Positions 8,452-21,866 of a DNA stretch of 22,749 nucleotides are shown in pieces. Position numbers and translations under genes: made by a program. The stretch is from a virus. The stretch's first letter is position 1, and each line of letters opens with the position of its first letter. The stretch covers positions 1 to 22,749 of the IMG/VR virus record IMGVR_UViG_3300028675_000008; one strand, 5' to 3'. Under the pieces are notes generated by a model, which was given only the letters and a program-made list of their open reading frames with translations, ran no database searches and had not been told where the DNA came from.

Positions 8452-8934
8452 TCACTTCCTCCTCGTCAGCGCCTGCATGCGCCGGTAAAGGTCAGGGTTT
8501 TCCCGGTAGATGCGCTCCTTCTCCTTGTAGGAGAGCTTGCTCCACTCCTCCAAGGAGAGCTCGTGCGCGGGCTCCCGGACCCCGTCTCCCACGATGCGAG
8601 GAGCGGCCTCCAGGAAGCCCTTGAGGGTCTTCAGGTCCACCTCCCTGGCCCACCGCTCCAGGGCGGGGGTGAGCTTCCCATCGGCCTTGCCCTGGCGGAT
8701 CAGCTCCTCCCGCTCCCGGGCCTCCCGCTCGGCCTCCAGCTCCCGGACCCGGGCGGTGAGGGCCTCCACCTGGCGGGCGGCCTCCTTCCAGGCCCGGATT
8801 ACCCCTACCGCCTCGGCGGGGTCCTCCTTGCCGGTGAGGGCCACCACCTCGGCCAGCCCCGCCCTGAGGCGGGCGATGGCCTCAAGAGCGGCCACCTCGT
8901 CCTCTACACCTAGAGCCGTCAGAACTCGCGTCAT
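8452..8934 (-). CDS. Nested scaffold protein, internal start of protease gene (Mu gpZ-like)
   Basis: An in-frame internal ATG at 8934 (codon 273 of the protease) has a very good ribosome site, GAGGAGG, five bases upstream; the main ATG at 9750 has none of comparable quality. Translation from it would give 160 residues, MTRVLTALGVEDEVAALEAI and on, comprising only the helical, charged scaffold part. Mu makes its scaffold gpZ in just this way from the 3' part of gene I, so a second product is expected by analogy. A scaffold directs capsid assembly inside the procapsid and is then cut by the protease. The site is seen in the sequence; the separate product is inference. Confidence 0.6.
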   Translation of the reverse strand: MTRVLTALGVEDEVAALEAIARLRAGLAEVVALTGKEDPAEAVGVIRAWKEAARQVEALTARVRELEAEREAREREELIRQGKADGKLTPALERWAREVDLKTLKGFLEAAPRIVGDGVREPAHELSLEEWSKLSYKEKERIYRENPDLYRRMQALTRRK

Positions 8935-9750
8935 TTTCGCCTCCTCGTCCCTTTCCCACGGGGCTTTCTCGCCCCATTGGTGGTAGTGCTGGGCGATGTG
9001 CCGCTTGACCGCGGCCAAATCCGAATCGGGGATGTCCACGCCGCCCCTGGCCCCCTGCAGGGCCGCGGCGGCGGCCATCACCCCCCTTTTGTGGACCACC
9101 AGCTCCCCGTCCCGCACGTCGTGGTGGGGGAGCTTGTAGGACCCGAAGTTTTCGGGGTCGCCGGCGTCGTACCAGGCGAAGGCCTGGCGGTACTTCTCCC
9201 AGTCAATAGTGCCCTTTTCCCCGGACCCGTCCCGGGAGGCCCACCGCCGCACCCGGGCGATGGCGGCGTCCGCGTCCCAAGAGCCGTCCACCACCTCGCC
9301 CCCCTTGAAGGGCACCGCCTTGGCCACCAGGGGCTGCAGGCGTTTGGTGGCGGGCAGGTTGGTAAGGGCGATGTTGATGAGCTCCACGATGTGGCCGTCC
9401 TCTACTCGGAAGGCAGGGGAAAAGTACCTGTACTCCCGGTTCCGCAGGAGCTCCAGGGCCCGAGGCGTCCACTCCACGTTGACCGCCCACAGGCCGTCCG
9501 GGCGAATCTCCAGGTCAAACCACCCCGCCGCCGGGGTGGGGCCGTTGGCCACGGGCTCCAGGGCCTGGTGCTCGTAGTCCAGGGAGAGGCGGTTCCCCCA
9601 GTCCCGCCAGGCCTGGAGGACGCGCTGGGCGTCCTCGGGCGTGAAGAGGAAAACCCCCTTGGTGGTCTCCACCTTTCCGAAGGGGAAGATGCGGAACTCC
9701 CGCGGGACGCCAGCGGGAATCTCCGTGGTGAACGAGCTCAAGACCTTCAT
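8452..9750 (-). CDS. Head maturation protease with scaffold region (Mu gpI-like)
   Basis: 432 residues. The N-terminal 150 match Mu gpI: LSLDYEHQ (55-62, His61), AAGWFDLEIRPDGLWAVNVEW (74-94), WTPRALELLRNREYRYFSPA (94-113, Ser111) and NIALTNLPA (126-134). It cleaves the scaffold and itself during head maturation. Unusually, residues about 157-265 carry a block (DGSWDADAAIARVRRWASRD, then FGSYKLPHHDV, RGVMAAAAALQGARGGVDIP, AVKRHIAQHYHQ) that I know from other prohead-protease-type proteins rather than from Mu gpI. The last 160 residues are a charged coiled coil ending in GKADGKLTPALERWAREVDL, typical of Mu gpI/gpZ. ATG 9750 has no good ribosome site, and it lies about 55 bases below a promoter. 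An internal start at 8934 probably makes the scaffold alone. Confidence 0.9.
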   Translation of the reverse strand: MKVLSSFTTEIPAGVPREFRIFPFGKVETTKGVFLFTPEDAQRVLQAWRDWGNRLSLDYEHQALEPVANGPTPAAGWFDLEIRPDGLWAVNVEWTPRALELLRNREYRYFSPAFRVEDGHIVELINIALTNLPATKRLQPLVAKAVPFKGGEVVDGSWDADAAIARVRRWASRDGSGEKGTIDWEKYRQAFAWYDAGDPENFGSYKLPHHDVRDGELVVHKRGVMAAAAALQGARGGVDIPDSDLAAVKRHIAQHYHQWGEKAPWERDEEAKMTRVLTALGVEDEVAALEAIARLRAGLAEVVALTGKEDPAEAVGVIRAWKEAARQVEALTARVRELEAEREAREREELIRQGKADGKLTPALERWAREVDLKTLKGFLEAAPRIVGDGVREPAHELSLEEWSKLSYKEKERIYRENPDLYRRMQALTRRK

Positions 9751-9811
9751 GGCGGCACGAAAAATCCCCCGGGGTGAACCCGGAGGTCTAGAGTACGCCG
9801 ATTCTAGCCCT

Positions 9812-9840: not shown

Positions 9841-9886
9841 GCCCCCGTTTACTCCCGGCGTGGGGCGTGGTAAGATAGGGCTAACC

Positions 9887-9921
9887 CACCGGGGTGGGCC
9901 TGGGTTCCCGATACCCCGGTG
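9887..9921. terminator. Strong stem-loop between head operons, possible terminator
   Basis: CACCGGGGT (9887-9895) pairs perfectly with ACCCCGGTG (9913-9921), nine GC-rich pairs. An inner GGG/CCC pairing sits within the loop. A second hairpin lies at 9928-9952 (GCAGC/GCTGC and GGCT/AGCC, one bulge). Both sit just downstream of the gpF-like gene's stop (9956) and upstream of the promoter at 9812-9840, where transcription of the packaging operon would be expected to end. No run of U follows on the minus strand, so it is not a canonical factor-independent terminator. Confidence 0.4.
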
Positions 9922-9955
9922 CAGGACGCAGCGGCTTCCAGGAGCCGGCTGCCAG

Positions 9956-11113
9956 CTACTTAGCGAAACGAAGAAACCCCTGCCGTTGCTTGTTGATGTA
10001 CTTCTCATCGCTCGTTTCAATGAACGTGTACCCCGCCACCAATACCCCCTTTTGGAACTCCCCCACAAGCAAGACGTTCCGCAGGCGCTCGTGCTGGTAA
10101 ACTTTGACGTAGCGCAGGCGAAACACCACGGCTCGCCCGTCCACCTTCCGCATGGGCACCAGCCAGATTTCCTCCGGGTTCCGCACCAGGTCTGGGAGCC
10201 AAGAGAGGAAGCGCTCTCGCCCATCAGGCTTCAGGTGGCTGAGAAACGCCTCGTCCAGGAGGGCCATCATGCCTGTGGGGTCCTGGACGTAGAGCGGCAC
10301 AGCCCCCCAGGCGCCCTCAAGGGCCTTCCTGAACCCCTCCTTCCCCGCTTCCTCCACCGTGGGCAAGAGGGGAGTGGGAGGGGGGTGAACGGGTAAGCGC
10401 TCCGGGCGGTCATACGTCCGCCAGTCCGGGGGCGGGCCGATAAACGCGGGCTCCCACTGCCCCGGCTTGGCGGTGTCCGTGACGCCTCTGGCGTAAGCAC
10501 GTCCCCACTCGGCGAAGTCAGGGGCGAGGCCAAACCCTTGCTGAGGAGGCTCGGAAGGGGGTTCCTGGGCCACTCCCCTTCGCCTGGCCTCGGCCTCGGT
10601 GAGGGGCCTCACCCCACTGCGGCAGTTGAAGTGGAGGGGAGGCCAGTTCCAGCGCCACCACGGGTCATCGGCTGGTAAGACGGTGCCGTTTCGTGCCCGG
10701 CATATCTCCGTGGTGCGGCTGTCCAGGACGGCGTCGTACATGAGGTAGGGATGGGTAGCCCGCACCTCGGGGTCCTGGAGCTGGGCCCAGCGCCCCGACT
10801 GGTAGGCCATCTGGACGTTGGTGCGGAAGATGGTCTCCACCCGCTGGCCGTCCCTCCTCCCCCAGACGCCCTCTAGCTTCTGCCGCACCCCTCTCTTCCA
10901 CTCCTCGTAGGGGGTGCCCTCTTGCAGCGCCCGGACCAGGGACTCCCACACCTCGGCCAGAAGGTCTAGGGAAGCCACGCCGGCCACGGTGAAGGCCCTC
11001 CGCCTCGCCGCTTCCCGCAGGCGGGTCCACTCCTCCTTGCGGAGGGGCACCCGGGCCCGGAACCAGGCGATGGCCTCCTCGGGCCGAGTGGGGTCAGCGC
11101 TGACCCGCCACAT
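9956..11113 (-). CDS. Mu gpF-like head morphogenesis protein fused to PBECR-like nuclease domain
   Basis: 385 residues. Residues 1-180 are a Mu gpF/SPP1 gp7-type minor head protein: FRTNVQMAYQSGRWAQLQ (96-113), DAVLDSRTTEICRARNGTVL (127-146) and PPLHFNCRSGVRPLTEAEA (158-176) are the family signatures. After a Pro-rich linker (183-250), residues about 255-385 form a second domain. It contains LPDLVRNPEEIWLVPMRKVD (306-325), FRLRYVKVYQ (331-340), VLLVGEFQKGVLVAGYTFIE (347-366) and YINKQRQGFLRF (372-383). This pattern agrees with the PBECR (phage Barnase-EndoU-colicin E5/D-RelE-like) nuclease family, known as C-terminal fusions to phage head proteins. It may enter the cell with the DNA. ATG 11113 overlaps the portal's end by 20 bases. 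The gpF call is firm; the nuclease call is from remembered patterns. Confidence 0.85.
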   Translation of the reverse strand: MWRVSADPTRPEEAIAWFRARVPLRKEEWTRLREAARRRAFTVAGVASLDLLAEVWESLVRALQEGTPYEEWKRGVRQKLEGVWGRRDGQRVETIFRTNVQMAYQSGRWAQLQDPEVRATHPYLMYDAVLDSRTTEICRARNGTVLPADDPWWRWNWPPLHFNCRSGVRPLTEAEARRRGVAQEPPSEPPQQGFGLAPDFAEWGRAYARGVTDTAKPGQWEPAFIGPPPDWRTYDRPERLPVHPPPTPLLPTVEEAGKEGFRKALEGAWGAVPLYVQDPTGMMALLDEAFLSHLKPDGRERFLSWLPDLVRNPEEIWLVPMRKVDGRAVVFRLRYVKVYQHERLRNVLLVGEFQKGVLVAGYTFIETSDEKYINKQRQGFLRFAK

Positions 11114-12575
11114 CCCGCGCCACCGCGTACCGCCCCGCCAGTTCCGAGAGGAGGAGGGCGGCTTCCAAGAGGCCGGCTAACTCGCCAGGGCCGGCCTCGG
11201 GGATGAGGTCTATGAGCCTTTGGCGAAGGGCCTCGTAGTCCCCGGCTTCCGCCACAGCCCGGAGAACGGCGTCCAACTGCCTGCGCAGGAGGGGTATGGC
11301 CGCCCTAATGGCCTCGTCCGCTACCCGGTCGGCATAGAGCTGCCCCTGGACAAAACCGCTGGAGAGGACCGCCCGGTCCCCAGAGGCCAGACGCACAGTC
11401 TGGGTGGAGGCCTCCTGGGCCACCGGCACCCCGTAGGCCTCCAGGATGGCCCGGAGGTCCACCGGCGCCCCGGCCTGGGTAAGCCCCTGGATGGCCTGGG
11501 CCAACTTAGCCAGGGTCTCAGCCCCCACCTGGCGGTCCTCGGGGGGCGTGGTGTCCCACTTGGGCCAGGGGGCGAGGCGGGCGGAACCCCAGTTGTACTC
11601 GGCCCACCAGCGGACGACCCCTTCCCGCAGAGAAGTGGCCAGGGCCTCGGCGTCCGCCTCCAAGAGGTCCTGGCGCACCATGTGGTGCACCTGGGCGGCG
11701 GCGTAGGAGCCACCTTGGACCTCGGTGGTGAGGTTCTGGCCCAGGACGGCCACGGCGATGGCCCGGTCTGCCCAGGCGATGGCCGCCTCCCGGCCCCGCC
11801 ACACCTCCCCCGAGGGCGAGAGGATGTCCATCTCGTAGCCCGGGGGGAGGACCAGCCCGGTGTCAGCTCCCATGTCGGCCAAAAGCCGGGCCAGGGCCTC
11901 CCGCTCCTCCTGAGCGCTCATCTCCCCGGCCTTGGCCACCCGCACCGCCCCCACCTCGTTGTCCCGAGCCCAGTACCGGGCAGCGTCTAGCTTGATGAGC
12001 CAGGGCAGGGCGATGGCCCGCCACAGGCCCATCTCCCAGGGCCGCCTGGGACCGTAGGGGGTGTAAAGCCACCAGGCCCCCTCCTTCAGGGGGTGCCTAG
12101 GGTCCTCCCGGGTCCGCACGTACCAGCGCTCTTCCTGGGGATCCCAAAAAAGGTTCCGGGGATGCCAGGGCTCCAGGTGGGGAAGGAGCCTCCCCGTCTC
12201 CTCGTCCTCCCGCCAGTCCAGGCGGGCCAGACCCACCCCCAGGAGGAGCCCCCAGGCCAGGACCTGGTAGAGGGCGTCCTCGGGGGCGAAGTGGAAGAAG
12301 TCCACCTCAAGGGCCCGGGCGATGGTCTTCCCTTCCCGGTCGTTGGGCCGCTCTACGAGGAAGGGCAGGCCCAAAAGCCCCCGCACCCGCACCCCCACCG
12401 TGGCCGCCACCCGGTCGTCCGCCAGCATGGCGCCCACCAGGTCCGCCGCCGGGAGGAGGTTTCCCCCCATGGCGGCCCGGGTGGCGTAGGTCAGGTCTAC
12501 GGGGGCCCACTCCCGCCACCCCCACGGGGAAGGCTCCCGAACAAGGTCACTTAAGCTTCGTGGATTCTTCGCCAT
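11094..12575 (-). CDS. Portal protein (Mu gp29-like, DUF935)
   Basis: 493 residues starting MAKNPRSLSDLVREPSPWGW, with GGAGG four bases before ATG 12575. DUF935 features run in order: NLLPAADLVGAMLADDRVAA (residues about 39-58), then RVRGLLGLPFLVE. Next is a helical block with LAWGLLLGVGLARLDWRED (about 105-123), then WHPRNLFWDPQEERWYVRTR (about 134-153). LWRAIALPWLIKLDAARYWA (about 183-202), then LVLPPGYEMDILSP and VLGQNLTTEVQGGSYAAAQV (about 275-295) follow. The portal is the dodecameric ring at one head vertex through which DNA is pumped by the terminase. Full family length, no defects seen. The gene order terminase-portal-gpF is the usual Mu one. Confidence 0.95.
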   Translation of the reverse strand: MAKNPRSLSDLVREPSPWGWREWAPVDLTYATRAAMGGNLLPAADLVGAMLADDRVAATVGVRVRGLLGLPFLVERPNDREGKTIARALEVDFFHFAPEDALYQVLAWGLLLGVGLARLDWREDEETGRLLPHLEPWHPRNLFWDPQEERWYVRTREDPRHPLKEGAWWLYTPYGPRRPWEMGLWRAIALPWLIKLDAARYWARDNEVGAVRVAKAGEMSAQEEREALARLLADMGADTGLVLPPGYEMDILSPSGEVWRGREAAIAWADRAIAVAVLGQNLTTEVQGGSYAAAQVHHMVRQDLLEADAEALATSLREGVVRWWAEYNWGSARLAPWPKWDTTPPEDRQVGAETLAKLAQAIQGLTQAGAPVDLRAILEAYGVPVAQEASTQTVRLASGDRAVLSSGFVQGQLYADRVADEAIRAAIPLLRRQLDAVLRAVAEAGDYEALRQRLIDLIPEAGPGELAGLLEAALLLSELAGRYAVARDVAGQR

Positions 12576-15426: not shown

Positions 15427-16104
15427 TCACGCCGCCTCTTCCCTGAACACCAGCCTCCACGTCCGCCCGTGCTTGGCCAACAGGCGGACCCACGGGCTCA
15501 GGTCCGCCCACGGATCCAGCCGGCTCACCCCACGCCGGTTGCGGATGGCCAGGGCCACCAGCCAGGCCCGCCAGGCCCAGGCTTCGGCCTCGTTGGCCAG
15601 CTCCTCCTTCTTCTCTACCCAGGCCGGCTCCTCAAACCGCAGCGCGGCGAGGTGGGCCTCTCTGGCGAGGTGGGCCTGAGCCCACCGCTCCAGGGCCCTG
15701 ACCTCTAGAGCCACGTGCTGACCCTCCTCCACGGCCTCCAGGAGGGCCGCCCAGGTGTAGCGCTCCAGGCCCCAGCGGACGTAGCCCGAGAGCGCGTCGG
15801 TGAGGAGGCACCAAAAGGCGTAGGCCAGCCAGTAGGGCACGTTCCGCCCGATCTCCTCCTCCGCCTCGGCCCGCAGTTTGGCCTCGTAGGCCAGGGCGAA
15901 CGCCTCTCGGGCTTCCTGGGTGTCGTCCTGGGTGGTGACGAAGAAGTGGGCCAGGAGGTCCCGGTAATGGGCCATCTCCTCCCGGTGGCGGGCCAGAAAG
16001 GCCCGGGCGGCCTCAAGGTTCCCCACGAACTTGGGCCGCCCATCCTCCACGGCGAGGGTCAGCCCCTCCTCGTCCAGCGCCTTCACCAGCTCCACCAGGC
16101 TCAT
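15427..16104 (-). CDS. TubC-domain (N-terminal docking-like) protein
   Basis: 225 residues from ATG 16104 (MSLVELVKALDEEGLTLAVE). I prefer this start to the one 39 bases upstream because it overlaps the helicase stop as ATGA and has GGAGGT six bases before it. The first 55 residues (LVKALDEEGLTLAVEDGRPKF, then LEAARAFLARHREEMAHYRD and LLAHFF) look like a TubC N-terminal docking domain. That domain occurs on primases and replication-linked proteins of plasmids and phages. The rest is long, Trp- and Glu-rich helices (AEAEEEIGRNVPYWLAYAFW, ELANEAEAWAWRAWLVALAI) with no catalytic motif that I recognise. Coupled to the helicase, it may dock onto the replication complex. Confidence 0.7.
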   Translation of the reverse strand: MSLVELVKALDEEGLTLAVEDGRPKFVGNLEAARAFLARHREEMAHYRDLLAHFFVTTQDDTQEAREAFALAYEAKLRAEAEEEIGRNVPYWLAYAFWCLLTDALSGYVRWGLERYTWAALLEAVEEGQHVALEVRALERWAQAHLAREAHLAALRFEEPAWVEKKEELANEAEAWAWRAWLVALAIRNRRGVSRLDPWADLSPWVRLLAKHGRTWRLVFREEAA

Positions 16105-17726
16105 ACCCACACCTCCCCCCAGTACTCGCCCACTCTCGGCCACGGGTAGCCGTGCGGGGCCTTCCCCTGGTCCATGAGAACCACCCGCTGCCGAGCCCTG
16201 GTCACCGCCACGTACATCAGGCGGTGAAGGGCGTCCGGATTCTCCCGAAGGCCTTCAGCCGCCTTGCGAGTGTAGCCGGGCCAGACGTAGACGTGGTCGG
16301 CCTCACCGCCCTTCACGGAGTGGACGGTGCCGATCCAAACCAGGGGCTTCCCGTGGAGGACCAGGTCCGGGTGGCGCGTGGCCACCATGAGGGCGCTCCG
16401 CATCCCCTTTGGGGCGCTCCCCAGCAGGTGGTCCAAAAGCCACTCCGGGTCCCTGGCCGCAATGTGGGGGCGGTGCTCCGGCCTGAAGACGCCCCAGATG
16501 GGGTGGTCGTCGGGGATAACCGCCTCGTCCGGGAGGGCGGCGATGGCCTCCAGGGCCTCCGCCTTCTTCCCCAAGAAGGGGACCCGGGTCAAGTACTTGG
16601 CCCAGGCCTTCACGTCCTTCCCCAGGCGCTTCGGGAAGAGGAAGGCCCTGGCCTTCTGCCACCCGGCCCGCTCGTCATCGGGGAAGAGGTTGAGGCTGGG
16701 CCGCTTGGGGGCGTAGGGGTTCCCCCACGGGAGGCCCTTCTCGGCCAGAACGCCCTTCAGATCCTTCAGGTAGTAGCGCGTGGTGGCCAGGAAGAGCACG
16801 CTCTCCCCCCGCCGAATCGCCCCCTCGGCGTCCTCCACGGCCCAGCGGGGGGCATCGGGGGGCACGCGCAGGTAGGCGACCTCCCCCTCCTCCGGCCGGG
16901 GCTTGTAGCGCTTCTCGGCCCGGTTCCGCGCCCTCCCGATGATAGACTCGGCCAGGGCCTGGACCTTCGCCGGCACCCGGTAGGACTGGGAGAGCACGAT
17001 CTCCCGGTCCACCGGGAAGGAGAGGAAGCTGGTGCCGTCCGCCCCCAGGTGGGCGTAGATGCTCTGGTCGTCGTCCCCCACCAGCGCCGTGTAGCGTGCG
17101 CCGGCGGCCCACTTCTTCACCAGCTCCAGCTGCAGGGGCGTCAGGTCCTGGGCCTCGTCCACGAAGAGGTAGTCCACGCCCAGGCCCGGCAGGACGAGGG
17201 CTCTCTCCAACATGGCCGGGAAGTCCACCAGGCCCTCCTGGCTCATCCAAGCCCTCCAGCGGGCCCAGAAGGCCCGCACCTCCTCGGGCCACTGGGCCAT
17301 GGGCCGCGTGGTGTTCCTGAGGTAGACCAGCTGGTCGTAGATCTGGTCGCCGGGGAGGCCTCCTTCCTCCTCGCTGTAGGGGTCCAGGGCGTCCACGGTG
17401 TTCCCGCGGTAGTCCACCCGGGGCGTCAGCCGCCACGTGTCCGGGACCTGGGCGTTCCACTGGGCGATCCGCTCCTTGGTGAGGGCTAACTCGGGGTTCC
17501 CCAGGGCGCGGTAAGCCAGGGAGTGGATCGTGCCCAGGTTGTCCCGAGGCACCTGCCCGCCGATCCTAGCGGTAAACTCCTTGAACGCCGCCCTGGAGAA
17601 AGACGCCACGGCGATCGCCTCTCCGGGCACTCCACTTGTGACAAGCTTCTCCACCTCGCCGGCCAACCAGGTGGTCTTCCCGGTGCCCGGCGGTCCGTAG
17701 ACCCTCACGCGGCTAGAACCAGTCAT
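16101..17726 (-). CDS. UvrD/PcrA-type superfamily 1 DNA helicase
   Basis: 541 residues from ATG 17726 (MTGSSRVRVYGPPGTGKTTW). Frames extend upstream into the repeat array, but this start has a purine-rich AAGGGGGGG motif and only a 14-base overlap with the preceding gene. Motif I is GPPGTGKTT (11-19). Motif II is VDEAQDL (about 207-213) and motif III GDDDQSIYAHLG (about 233-244). Motif V is GTVHSVKGGEADHVYVWPG (about 462-480) and motif VI RLMYVAVTRARQRVVL (about 501-516). It is shorter than UvrD (about 720), with reduced 1B/2B domains. It probably unwinds DNA in phage replication, possibly as the phage's main replicative helicase since no DnaB-like gene is in view. Confidence 0.92.
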   Translation of the reverse strand: MTGSSRVRVYGPPGTGKTTWLAGEVEKLVTSGVPGEAIAVASFSRAAFKEFTARIGGQVPRDNLGTIHSLAYRALGNPELALTKERIAQWNAQVPDTWRLTPRVDYRGNTVDALDPYSEEEGGLPGDQIYDQLVYLRNTTRPMAQWPEEVRAFWARWRAWMSQEGLVDFPAMLERALVLPGLGVDYLFVDEAQDLTPLQLELVKKWAAGARYTALVGDDDQSIYAHLGADGTSFLSFPVDREIVLSQSYRVPAKVQALAESIIGRARNRAEKRYKPRPEEGEVAYLRVPPDAPRWAVEDAEGAIRRGESVLFLATTRYYLKDLKGVLAEKGLPWGNPYAPKRPSLNLFPDDERAGWQKARAFLFPKRLGKDVKAWAKYLTRVPFLGKKAEALEAIAALPDEAVIPDDHPIWGVFRPEHRPHIAARDPEWLLDHLLGSAPKGMRSALMVATRHPDLVLHGKPLVWIGTVHSVKGGEADHVYVWPGYTRKAAEGLRENPDALHRLMYVAVTRARQRVVLMDQGKAPHGYPWPRVGEYWGEVWV

Positions 17727-18633
17727 CGTCCACCCCCCCTTGGGCCGGTGGCGTTGCCACATCGCCACTTCCCTCAAAAGAAGTGGCAACGGGGTTTATG
17801 CCGTTCAGGACACGCTTTTCTCCCCCGGTTGCCACATTGCCACTTCCTTTTTCTTTTTCCGGGTCCCCACCCCGGGAATCGTCACGAAGTGGCAATGTGG
17901 CAACGCCCTCCTTTTTCTCCGTGCTGGACGGGGCGGAGAGCGTTGCCACTTCTCCGCGGAGAAGTGGCAACGTGGCAACACCCGTGAAATCTGTCTCGGC
18001 CTCGCCCTGCCCGTCCAGCAAGGAAGCGGGCAGGGCCCAGTAACGCCTGTGCACGTACCCGCTGGACCTCAGCGCCAGCCGGACGCTCTCCGCCCCATAC
18101 CGGCGCAGGAGGTAGGCCATCTCCCGGGGGCGAATCCGCTGCCCCCGGTTCTCCGTGCTCCACTTGGCCAAGTGGGTGGCGTGCACCAAGACGCTGCCTC
18201 CCCGTTCCACCGGGAGCTCCATGCGCACGTGGCTCTTCCAAGCGGCCTCGTCCTCCTCGCTGGCGGGCTTGTAGGCGTCCAGGTAGGCCTCCAAGAGGCT
18301 CACCAGCCAGTCCAGCTCCTCGGCCTCCGGGGCCTCGTAGTCCACGGTGGCCTGGGCGATGACCTGGACGACGATGTCCCAGTAGCGCTGGTCCACCCAG
18401 CGAAGGAGGTGATGCGTGGCCTGGAAGACGCTGAGGCGGAGGCGCCGCTGGTTGAGCAGGGCTTCCGCCGTCCCCAGCTCCACGTGCCGCCCGTTCACCA
18501 CGGCCACGTAGCGGGGCGGCGTGGAGAGGTAGCGGCGGATCTCCTGCAGGCCGGGCCAGCCCCACTCGTCCCGCAGGTAGGCCAGGGCCTCTTCCCTAGT
18601 CATCTCGGGGGGCTTCAAGGCGCCGGCTTCCAT
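17713..18633 (-). CDS. Replication initiator candidate with origin-like repeats in 3' end
   Basis: 306 residues, MEAGALKPPEMTREEALAYL at the start; GGAGG lies five bases before ATG 18633. Residues 1-215 are helical with an HTH-like start (LAYLRDEWGWPGLQEIRRYL), a central VFQATHHLLRWVDQRYWDIV, and a winged-helix-like segment (HLAKWSTENRGQRIRPREMA, then YLLRRYGAESVRLALRS). From residue 219 the protein is low complexity, with repeated G/N/D-VAT motifs (GVATLPL, EVATL, NVATG, PVATS, DVATP). These come from a DNA repeat array at 17753-17979. No known family is recognised. Phage initiators such as lambda O carry their origin inside their own gene, and the next gene is a helicase, so I infer an initiator. 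The repeat-coded tail may be only tolerated protein. Confidence 0.65.
   Translation of the reverse strand: MEAGALKPPEMTREEALAYLRDEWGWPGLQEIRRYLSTPPRYVAVVNGRHVELGTAEALLNQRRLRLSVFQATHHLLRWVDQRYWDIVVQVIAQATVDYEAPEAEELDWLVSLLEAYLDAYKPASEEDEAAWKSHVRMELPVERGGSVLVHATHLAKWSTENRGQRIRPREMAYLLRRYGAESVRLALRSSGYVHRRYWALPASLLDGQGEAETDFTGVATLPLLRGEVATLSAPSSTEKKEGVATLPLRDDSRGGDPEKEKGSGNVATGGEKRVLNGINPVATSFEGSGDVATPPAQGGVDDDWF
17753..17979. repeat. Alternating iteron array, putative replication origin
   Basis: Six copies of GAAGTGGCAAYGTGGCAAC, whole or half, alternate in orientation. They are 17753-17772 (minus, one change), 17780-17790 (plus, half), 17828-17847 (minus), 17886-17904 (plus), 17942-17952 (minus, half) and 17961-17979 (plus). 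They form three inverted pairs. The middle pair matches over 19 bases around a 38-base loop. Each full copy is itself two tandem GTGGCAAY blocks. Short T-rich tracts lie between (17844-17860, 17910-17919). The array sits in the 3' end of the initiator candidate and ends just before the helicase start. Confidence 0.8.
17942..17971. repeat. Perfect 30-bp palindrome in the iteron array
   Basis: The fifth and sixth repeats meet tail to tail to give a perfect palindrome with CCGCGG at its centre and GTTGCCAC/GTGGCAAC at its ends. It could bind a dimeric initiator or extrude as a cruciform. The other two pairs have spacers of 7 and 38 bases. Confidence 0.9.
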
Positions 18634-21119: not shown

Positions 21120-21132
21120 CTACCAATGGTAG
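21120..21132. promoter_or_regulatory. Operator 1 of the lysogeny switch
   Basis: CTACCAATGGTAG, a palindrome with half-site CTACC/GGTAG and three central bases. It covers the -10 element of the leftward Cro-like promoter, so repressor bound here would block lytic transcription. It is the most symmetric of three similar sites. Confidence 0.65.
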
Positions 21133-21154
21133 CACCTCGGAAACCAAAAGTCAA
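21126..21154 (-). promoter_or_regulatory. Leftward early promoter (PR-like)
   Basis: On the minus strand, TTGACT (21154-21149) and TACCAT (21131-21126) are separated by 17 bases: 5 of 6 and 4 of 6 matches to the housekeeping consensus. The predicted transcription start is about 21119-21117, on the Cro-like ATG itself. Operator 1 overlaps the -10 and operator 2 touches the -35. Confidence 0.7.
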
Positions 21155-21166
21155 TACCACCGGTAG
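21154..21166. promoter_or_regulatory. Operator 2 of the lysogeny switch
   Basis: ATACCACCGGTAG, same TACC-N3-GGTA arrangement as operator 1. Its centre is 34 bases from the centre of operator 1. It adjoins the -35 of the leftward promoter. Confidence 0.6.
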
Positions 21167-21177
21167 TCGTTTGCCTA

Positions 21178-21190
21178 TTACTCTAGGTAT
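21178..21190. promoter_or_regulatory. Operator 3 of the lysogeny switch
   Basis: TTACTCTAGGTAT, a weaker copy (TACT-N3-GGTA). Its centre is 24 bases from that of operator 2 and it lies just upstream of the CI-like gene, where binding could autoregulate the repressor. I could not identify a convincing promoter for the rightward gene; a weak, repressor-activated one would be expected here. Confidence 0.5.
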
Positions 21191-21206
21191 TGAGCGGGGG
21201 GAGACT

Positions 21207-21866
21207 ATGACAGCAAGCTTTGTGGATTCAGCGGTCCCCATCAAGAGGCGACTGAAGCAGCTTGGGCTAAGCCAGGCGGATTTTTCAAAGCGCCTCGGTA
21301 AGAGCCCTGGTTGGGCGGCCGCTCGGTTTTTCCCTGACGTGGAAAGGGCGGTGCGGTACCTCGCCTATAGGGACCCTGAGACGCTGGATCGGATGTTGTC
21401 TGTTCTTCGCTGGACCCCCGAGGAGTTCGCCAGGGAGACCGGGATCCACATCCCCTTGGAAGCCCCTCACCCGGACCTCAGCCCCGTGGCGCGGTATCGT
21501 ATACCCGTCGTGGACGCCGGGGCTGGTCCCCCTATGTGGAGCGAGGAGGCCGAGTACATCGTCCTCCACATCCCCGAGCTTCGCGGGAAGTCGGAGCGGG
21601 AGCTCTTCGCCGTCAGGGTCCATGGGGACTCCATGGAGCCCACGCTGAGGGAGGGGGACGTGGTGGTGTTTTGGACCCAGGGGGCGGTGGAGCCTGGGCG
21701 CATCGTGGCCGTGCACGTCCACTGGGACGGCGTGGTCATCAAGCGGCTTCAGCGCCACGGCGACACCTGGTACCTCTACTCCGACAACCCCGAGCACCCG
21801 CCCGTCCCGCTGCTCGAGGCGGACAAGGTCTTGGGGGTGGCGGTCAACCTGGTGCGGAAGATCTGA
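21207..21866 (+). CDS. CI-like prophage repressor with LexA/S24 autoprotease domain
   Basis: 219 residues from ATG 21207 (MTASFVDSAVPIKRRLKQLG), which has GGGGGGAG nearby; a longer reading from 21126 would be coding through the operators. Residues about 12-75 hold a divergent HTH (RLKQLGLSQADFSKRLGKSP, then GWAAARFFPDVERA). The C-terminal domain is a complete S24/LexA peptidase: RVHGDSMEPTLREGDVVVF (137-155) with Ser142, and VVIKRL (176-181) with Lys179. A cleavage site of Ala-Gly type lies at VVDAGAG (Ala104-Gly105). It should repress the leftward early promoter through the three operators and self-cleave on RecA activation. Prophage induction by DNA damage is therefore expected. Confidence 0.93.
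   Translation: MTASFVDSAVPIKRRLKQLGLSQADFSKRLGKSPGWAAARFFPDVERAVRYLAYRDPETLDRMLSVLRWTPEEFARETGIHIPLEAPHPDLSPVARYRIPVVDAGAGPPMWSEEAEYIVLHIPELRGKSERELFAVRVHGDSMEPTLREGDVVVFWTQGAVEPGRIVAVHVHWDGVVIKRLQRHGDTWYLYSDNPEHPPVPLLEADKVLGVAVNLVRKI

Follow-up and report, generated by a model that had tools for sequence, protein, structure and literature searches.

Fusions of MuF head proteins to PBECR domains were described by Iyer et al. in 2017 (PMC5512222, drawn on here in part), who predicted active orthologues of phage Mu gp30 to be RNases and described Mu's own gp30 copy as inactive. Since such fusions and their predicted RNase were published then, the core of the finding reported here was already known. 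A second described group, the MuF polymorphic toxins (Jamet et al. 2017, PMC5576092), couples a MuF N-terminus to a variable C-terminal effector module with the portal gene adjacent, and a small open reading frame (ORF, under 150 aa) directly downstream is the candidate immunity gene for 89% of these toxins. A precedent for the travel of a MuF protein is SPP1 gp7, which is directed via the portal into the procapsid and helps infection to get started (PMC6316719).

The window analysed here is the whole of IMG/VR virus record IMGVR_UViG_3300028675_000008, 22,749 nucleotides in length, and contains the following head genes:

9956-11113, minus strand: minor head protein of the MuF/gpF type with C-terminal PBECR2; ORF of 385 aa, Pfam Phage_Mu_F and PBECR2, phrog_220
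11094-12575, minus strand: portal protein gene, directly upstream of MuF; Portal_Mu, E 8.2e-64
8452-9750, minus strand: Mu gpI-like head maturation protease gene, downstream of MuF; Mu-like_Pro, E 3.5e-49

The MuF-PBECR2 gene is flanked by genes that Pfam assigns to a Mu-type portal and a Mu gpI-like protease, and phrog_220, the PHROGs match of the 385-aa MuF protein, is the family of minor head protein and DNA pilot. The locus resembles the fusions of Iyer et al. in its PBECR2 domain (PF18810), in the joining of that domain to MuF and in its position beside phage head genes. It differs in belonging to a Thermus/Meiothermus phage, and neither the cassette exchange nor the abutting small RNA described below is mentioned in the part of that paper drawn on here. 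As in the MuF polymorphic toxins, a MuF domain is followed by a C-terminal effector domain and the gene adjoins that of the portal (Pfam); however, the PBECR2 allele has no small downstream ORF and the phage is not a Firmicutes phage. The gp30 (gpF) of phage Mu likewise joins MuF to a PBECR-type domain at its C-terminus and belongs to a Mu-like head module, but its domain is described as inactive whereas the window protein retains R299, T363 and R377.

Among isolates, the closest MuF proteins are those of Meiothermus phages MMP7 and MMP17, 70.9% identical along the whole length, and that of Thermus phage Riverbug, at 58.2%. The Thermus-type origin suggested by the first-pass annotation was therefore correct, and the PBECR2 domain may be thermostable, as it supposed. 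Elsewhere in the window, a UvrD-type helicase is encoded at 16101-17789 on the minus strand, and an S24-type repressor-like protein at 21126-21866 on the plus strand suggests a temperate phage. Just ahead of the protease gene lies a terminator-like hairpin with a T-run (9766-9786, minus strand), which comes after a shared promoter-like stretch and is a possible attenuator.

The PBECR2 domain and its predicted role

The first-pass annotation had placed a PBECR domain at the end of the gpF-type protein from the segments NPEEIW, YVKVYQ, GYTFIE and YINKQRQGF, all of which lie in the minus-strand ORF at 9956-11113. The Pfam profile search that it proposed bore this out and identified the family as PBECR2 (PF18810), which scored 71.6 bits where the curated cut-off is 27.1 (E-value 8.3e-20). 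This is far above chance, and 34 of 34 homologous domains in the alignment fall in the same family. The span first assigned to the domain, 9956-10400, does contain it but runs over the stop codon on one side and into the Pro-rich linker on the other. The protein is organized as follows:

10616-10951, minus strand: Phage_Mu_F domain, residues 55-166; Pfam PF04233, E 1.4e-20
10331-10615, minus strand: linker, residues 167-261, partly Pro-rich; interval between the two Pfam matches
9968-10330, minus strand: PBECR2 domain, residues 262-382, predicted metal-independent RNase; Pfam PF18810 and AlphaFold model
10217-10219, minus strand: R299, candidate catalytic Arg, opening the helix that precedes the strands; Arg in 52/56 homologues, model residue 61, helix 61-73
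10025-10027, minus strand: T363, candidate catalytic Thr, in strand 4 after the helix; Thr in 49/56, model residue 125, strand 125-128
10058-10060, minus strand: E352, conserved acidic residue in strand 3; Glu in 43/56, Asp in 5/56
9983-9985, minus strand: R377, conserved C-terminal Arg of an R-x-G-x-L motif; Arg in 53/56, gap in 3/56
10235-10237, minus strand: H293, His; His in 26/56, gap in 20/56

These counts come from an alignment of 56 distinct PBECR2 domains drawn from viral contigs, bacterial genomes and phage records. R299, T363 and R377 occur jointly in 48 of the 56, and the most constant positions are G281, R299, P313, E315, W317, R377 and G379. Conservation of H293 is confined to the Thermaceae-type branch, where it extends to nearly all homologues. 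Neither NCBIfam nor PHROGs gave the C-terminal part a name of its own.

In the account of Iyer et al. drawn on here (PMC5512222), BECR domains consist of a helix and four or five strands, with a Ser or Thr in strand 4 and a His in the helix, the latter replaced by Arg in a sixth family. The AlphaFold model of the PBECR2 domain (34-sequence; pLDDT 86.9, pTM 0.84) contains a helix at 61-73 and strands at 77-84, 91-103, 107-116, 125-128 and 142-146, compared here by order along the chain only. In the model T363 starts strand 125-128 and R299 begins the preceding helix, so that the predicted domain fits the described BECR layout with Arg in place of His. It is thereby predicted to belong to the BECR class of metal-independent RNases and to have RNase activity. 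A sequence and profile search of the PDB matched nothing, and in the comparison with nuclease folds that had been suggested, one Foldseek search of the model against the PDB gave no match at E <= 0.001 and thus no solved nuclease fold; profile, strand order and conserved residues nevertheless support the assignment.

The domain is under purifying selection, with dN/dS of 0.08-0.24 in all measurable pairs, a constraint like that on the head part. Compared with three relatives (L004, L005 and L006), dS was 0.45-0.51 in the PBECR2 domain and 0.14-0.17 in the N-terminal part; this excess suggests that recombination swaps the tail even among PBECR2 alleles. In one close relative (L114), PBECR2 is shortened and T363 missing while the frame is still open, so T363 has been dispensable at least once; the small RNA is also absent there.

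Taken with the exchange of the tail described below, the MuF minor head protein and its PBECR2 tail are probably a virion-borne, early-acting predicted RNase, one of several exchangeable modules. By analogy with SPP1 gp7, the portal-associated MuF part would most likely carry a few copies of the protein into the head, and because of this MuF precedent the PBECR2 tail would be expected to enter the cell together with the DNA. There it would cleave an RNA of the cell or of the phage in the early phase of infection, R299, T363 and R377 being placed in or near the active site. Carriage in the virion and action on RNA, both put forward by the first-pass annotation, correspond to the published prediction for such fusions (PMC5512222, in part) and the conserved residues fit them, at the level of prediction.

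The presence of the domain is no proof of activity, given that the C-terminal PBECR domain of Mu gp30 is described as inactive. A BECR fold could instead act by binding RNA or DNA, or play a structural part during packaging or ejection, along the lines suggested for the inactive Mu domain; the similar constraint on PBECR2 and head domain and the lack of an immunity-like ORF would both suit such a non-catalytic function. It is nonetheless rather unlikely, as few positions are better conserved than the putative catalytic residues and relatives live without PBECR2, having another module or a short MuF protein. The viability of these phages indicates that the domain is not a required part of the head, and a catalytic tail remains the preferred interpretation.

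Exchange of the MuF C-terminus

Comparison with related phages delimits a replaceable segment in the window:

9846-10580, no strand assigned: cassette replaced in related phages, comprising the MuF codons from about 178, the stop codon and the small RNA gene; blastn against L107 and L111

The relative L107 is 93-96% identical to the window in most 300-bp bins on both sides (blastn), with lower identity in the MuF N-terminal part (80-90%) and further downstream (83-89%). Positions 9846-10580 have no counterpart in L107 or L111 although both flanks align. In L107 their place is taken by a MuF tail with an HExxH motif and a 109-aa ORF overlapping the MuF stop codon, and the tail of L111 is replaced in the same way. 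The HExxH module had no Pfam match over the cut-off, giving only weak ones to M48 and MPTase-PolyVal. A third C-terminal module is present in L112, L113 and L021, followed in L112 by a 91-aa ORF; a structure model of this module was unusable (pLDDT 43).

Traces of earlier exchanges are visible downstream of some alleles. Behind the HExxH module and its ORF, L108 carries a displaced remnant (L108 4424-4842): part of the third module, 63 codons long in the ORF list, together with the 91-aa ORF. In L109 the HExxH module and its ORF precede what is left of PBECR2, its final residues, and the conserved small RNA element. When PBECR2 presence was placed on a tree of the N-terminal part, five changes resulted, at least three of them forced by well-supported branches, with some distant rows long-branched. 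The C-terminal module of the window is therefore an exchangeable cassette, one of several in Thermus/Meiothermus phages. The exchange, with an HExxH module and a 109-aa ORF standing in the place of PBECR2, is new here; both it and the small RNA gene had been missed by the first-pass annotation. A MuF protein with a zincin-type metallopeptidase tail in the place of PBECR2 was also observed in Myxococcus phage Mx4 (L016 2968-4377).

Such clean replacement of the C-terminus is what a true polymorphic toxin would display, directed against competitor bacteria or rival phages and accompanied by an immunity factor, as in the MuF toxin proposal (PMC5576092). Two of the modules bring a small ORF (109 aa after HExxH, 91 aa after the third module), and the orphan third-module piece behind an HExxH allele and the PBECR2 remnants behind others are arranged as in polymorphic toxin loci. 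The window itself departs from this pattern, since its 205-bp gap before the protease gene contains no ORF of at least 15 aa in the MuF sense, whereas the HExxH and third-module alleles do have the small downstream ORF. As the immunity-ORF rule is statistical (89% of toxins), this absence lowers the standing of the window protein as a MuF toxin rather than abolishing it, and a toxin in the strict sense is distinctly unlikely. The label 'toxin-like' given to the tail earlier is less secure than the family call: no immunity-like ORF follows the gene, although the tail occupies a slot filled elsewhere by other modules. The interpretation as a virion-borne predicted RNase carried as an exchangeable module is retained.

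A candidate small RNA gene and its copies at CRISPR arrays

The unexpected part of these findings, also new here, is that the PBECR2 cassette, while lacking an immunity-like ORF, holds a convergent structured candidate small RNA gene, recognized from aligned sequences:

9877-9952, plus strand: candidate small RNA gene, convergent with MuF, with hairpins A and B and a kissing loop; 32-sequence alignment, model R1 99.9 bits, ends inferred
9848-9876, plus strand: candidate promoter of the small RNA; TTTACT, 17 nt, extended -10 TGG-TAAGAT; TGGTA-ACT-like motif aligned across copies

Nearly all of the Deinococcota PBECR2 alleles examined have a conserved element after the MuF stop codon. On the plus strand, its extended -10-like motif (TGGTA-ACT) precedes hairpin A, and hairpin B comes next; many copies then have a T-run, which the window copy lacks. 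A strict sigma-70 scan did not report the candidate promoter. Across the 32-sequence alignment, standard pairs occupy 98.2% of pair cells, both partners vary in 13 of the 22 pairs, and the covariation score is 0.447 against 0.162 for shuffled alignments (0/500). The loops of hairpins A and B can pair with each other over five positions, which are kept in every sequence and two of which covary, the variants being CCUGG/CCAGG, CCCGG/CCGGG, CUCGG/CCGAG and CUUGG/CCAAG. Read on the plus strand the alignment contains 23 G-U cells versus 8 A-C cells, which points to this as the RNA strand. Folding energies of single sequences were not unusual (z -0.24 and -1.12), so the case for the small RNA rests on covariation. 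An Rfam search of the element returned no family and a tRNA search found none.

Two other readings of the element were set aside. A structure in the mRNA sense with an H-type pseudoknot (AACC/GGTT) loses its pairing in L009, L023, L120 and L121, and the wobble pairs favour the other strand; stop-codon read-through does not agree with a distance from stop codon to element that varies by non-multiples of three. A different conserved downstream element (ACTGTGCAGTAGCG...), hairpin-forming and without an Rfam match, is common to five proteobacterial MuF-PBECR2 loci (L072 5290, L081 5310, L086 5300, L089 5291 and L093 3608).

Of 111 Deinococcota genomes, 21 contain the small RNA according to the covariance model, whose clear matches (E up to 6e-8) are well separated from the next ones (E 0.004 and above). 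Some copies adjoin intact MuF-PBECR2 genes and others stand solo in chromosomes. The edges shared by solo copies fall at the terminator T-run and at the promoter, so that mobility, though conceivable, need not be invoked to explain them. That the RNA is the cognate partner of PBECR2, as RNA antitoxin, inhibitor or substrate, is improbable: it occupies the cassette position that a small ORF takes in other alleles, accompanies nearly all intact Deinococcota PBECR2 alleles examined and is absent from L107, L111, L112, L021 and the degenerate L114, but many chromosomal copies are solo and one PBECR2 locus (L183) has no such RNA directly after it.

Beyond the phage cassette, the small RNA recurs in Deinococcota genomes several times at CRISPR arrays, which is likewise new here, with copies inside or beside arrays and sometimes with PBECR2 remnants. 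In Meiothermus luteus a 2.7-kb phage fragment comprising the portal end, the whole MuF-PBECR2 gene, the small RNA and the start of the protease gene lies between CRISPR repeats (L020 2933-5639, equal to L240 7451-10157). Shorter pieces of the same phage locus were found at two further arrays, a 390-bp phage piece with the small RNA between type I-E-like repeats (L228) and a 163-bp piece with it between two CRISPR repeats (L231). Long-insert capture, recombination or assembly error could account for these fragments. Elsewhere, a copy immediately follows a CRISPR repeat (L230), another directly adjoins an array next to a lysS-like gene (L234) and has likely orthologues at a distance of about 1 kb from arrays (L235 and L237), a PBECR2 remnant with the small RNA lies 116 bp from an array (L306) and a further copy 298 bp from one (L308).

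For the background rate, 794 kb of Deinococcota DNA was sampled, of which 1.0% falls no more than 1.1 kb from a repeat cluster. Among the first 13 non-prophage copies, 6 lie within 1.1 kb of repeats (binomial ~2e-9), or 4 of 11 once likely orthologues are merged (3e-6), both figures being post hoc, from a small sample unmatched by genome, and from draft assemblies that could misplace repeats.

Phage small RNA genes with a promoter-like motif of their own and a CRISPR context are known from the RNA anti-CRISPRs (Racr, PMC10651486), which the window RNA resembles in these respects. It differs in its kissing-loop architecture and in having no significant similarity to the five CRISPR repeats compared with it, where 45, 100, 56, 221 and 134 of 300 shuffles scored as high, so that mimicry of CRISPR repeats is unsupported. 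The small RNAs of L230 and L020 scored better against the repeats of their own loci, with 4-5 of 300 shuffles as high. A broader proposal, and a long shot, is that the small RNA represents an undescribed family in Deinococcota phage-CRISPR conflict, which phages would carry next to a virion-borne RNase and hosts would retain at arrays, and which would act as a partner of PBECR2.

The function of PBECR RNases in phage heads has so far been an open prediction. Riverbug, MMP7 and MMP17 are isolated and culturable and carry the intact domain, which makes direct testing possible, and natural phages that are near-identical but differ in whether they have PBECR2 lend themselves to comparison. The small RNA gives a clue as to the target of the PBECR2 domain, and its presence at CRISPR arrays would bear on the 2017 suggestion that such RNases might target CRISPR RNAs.
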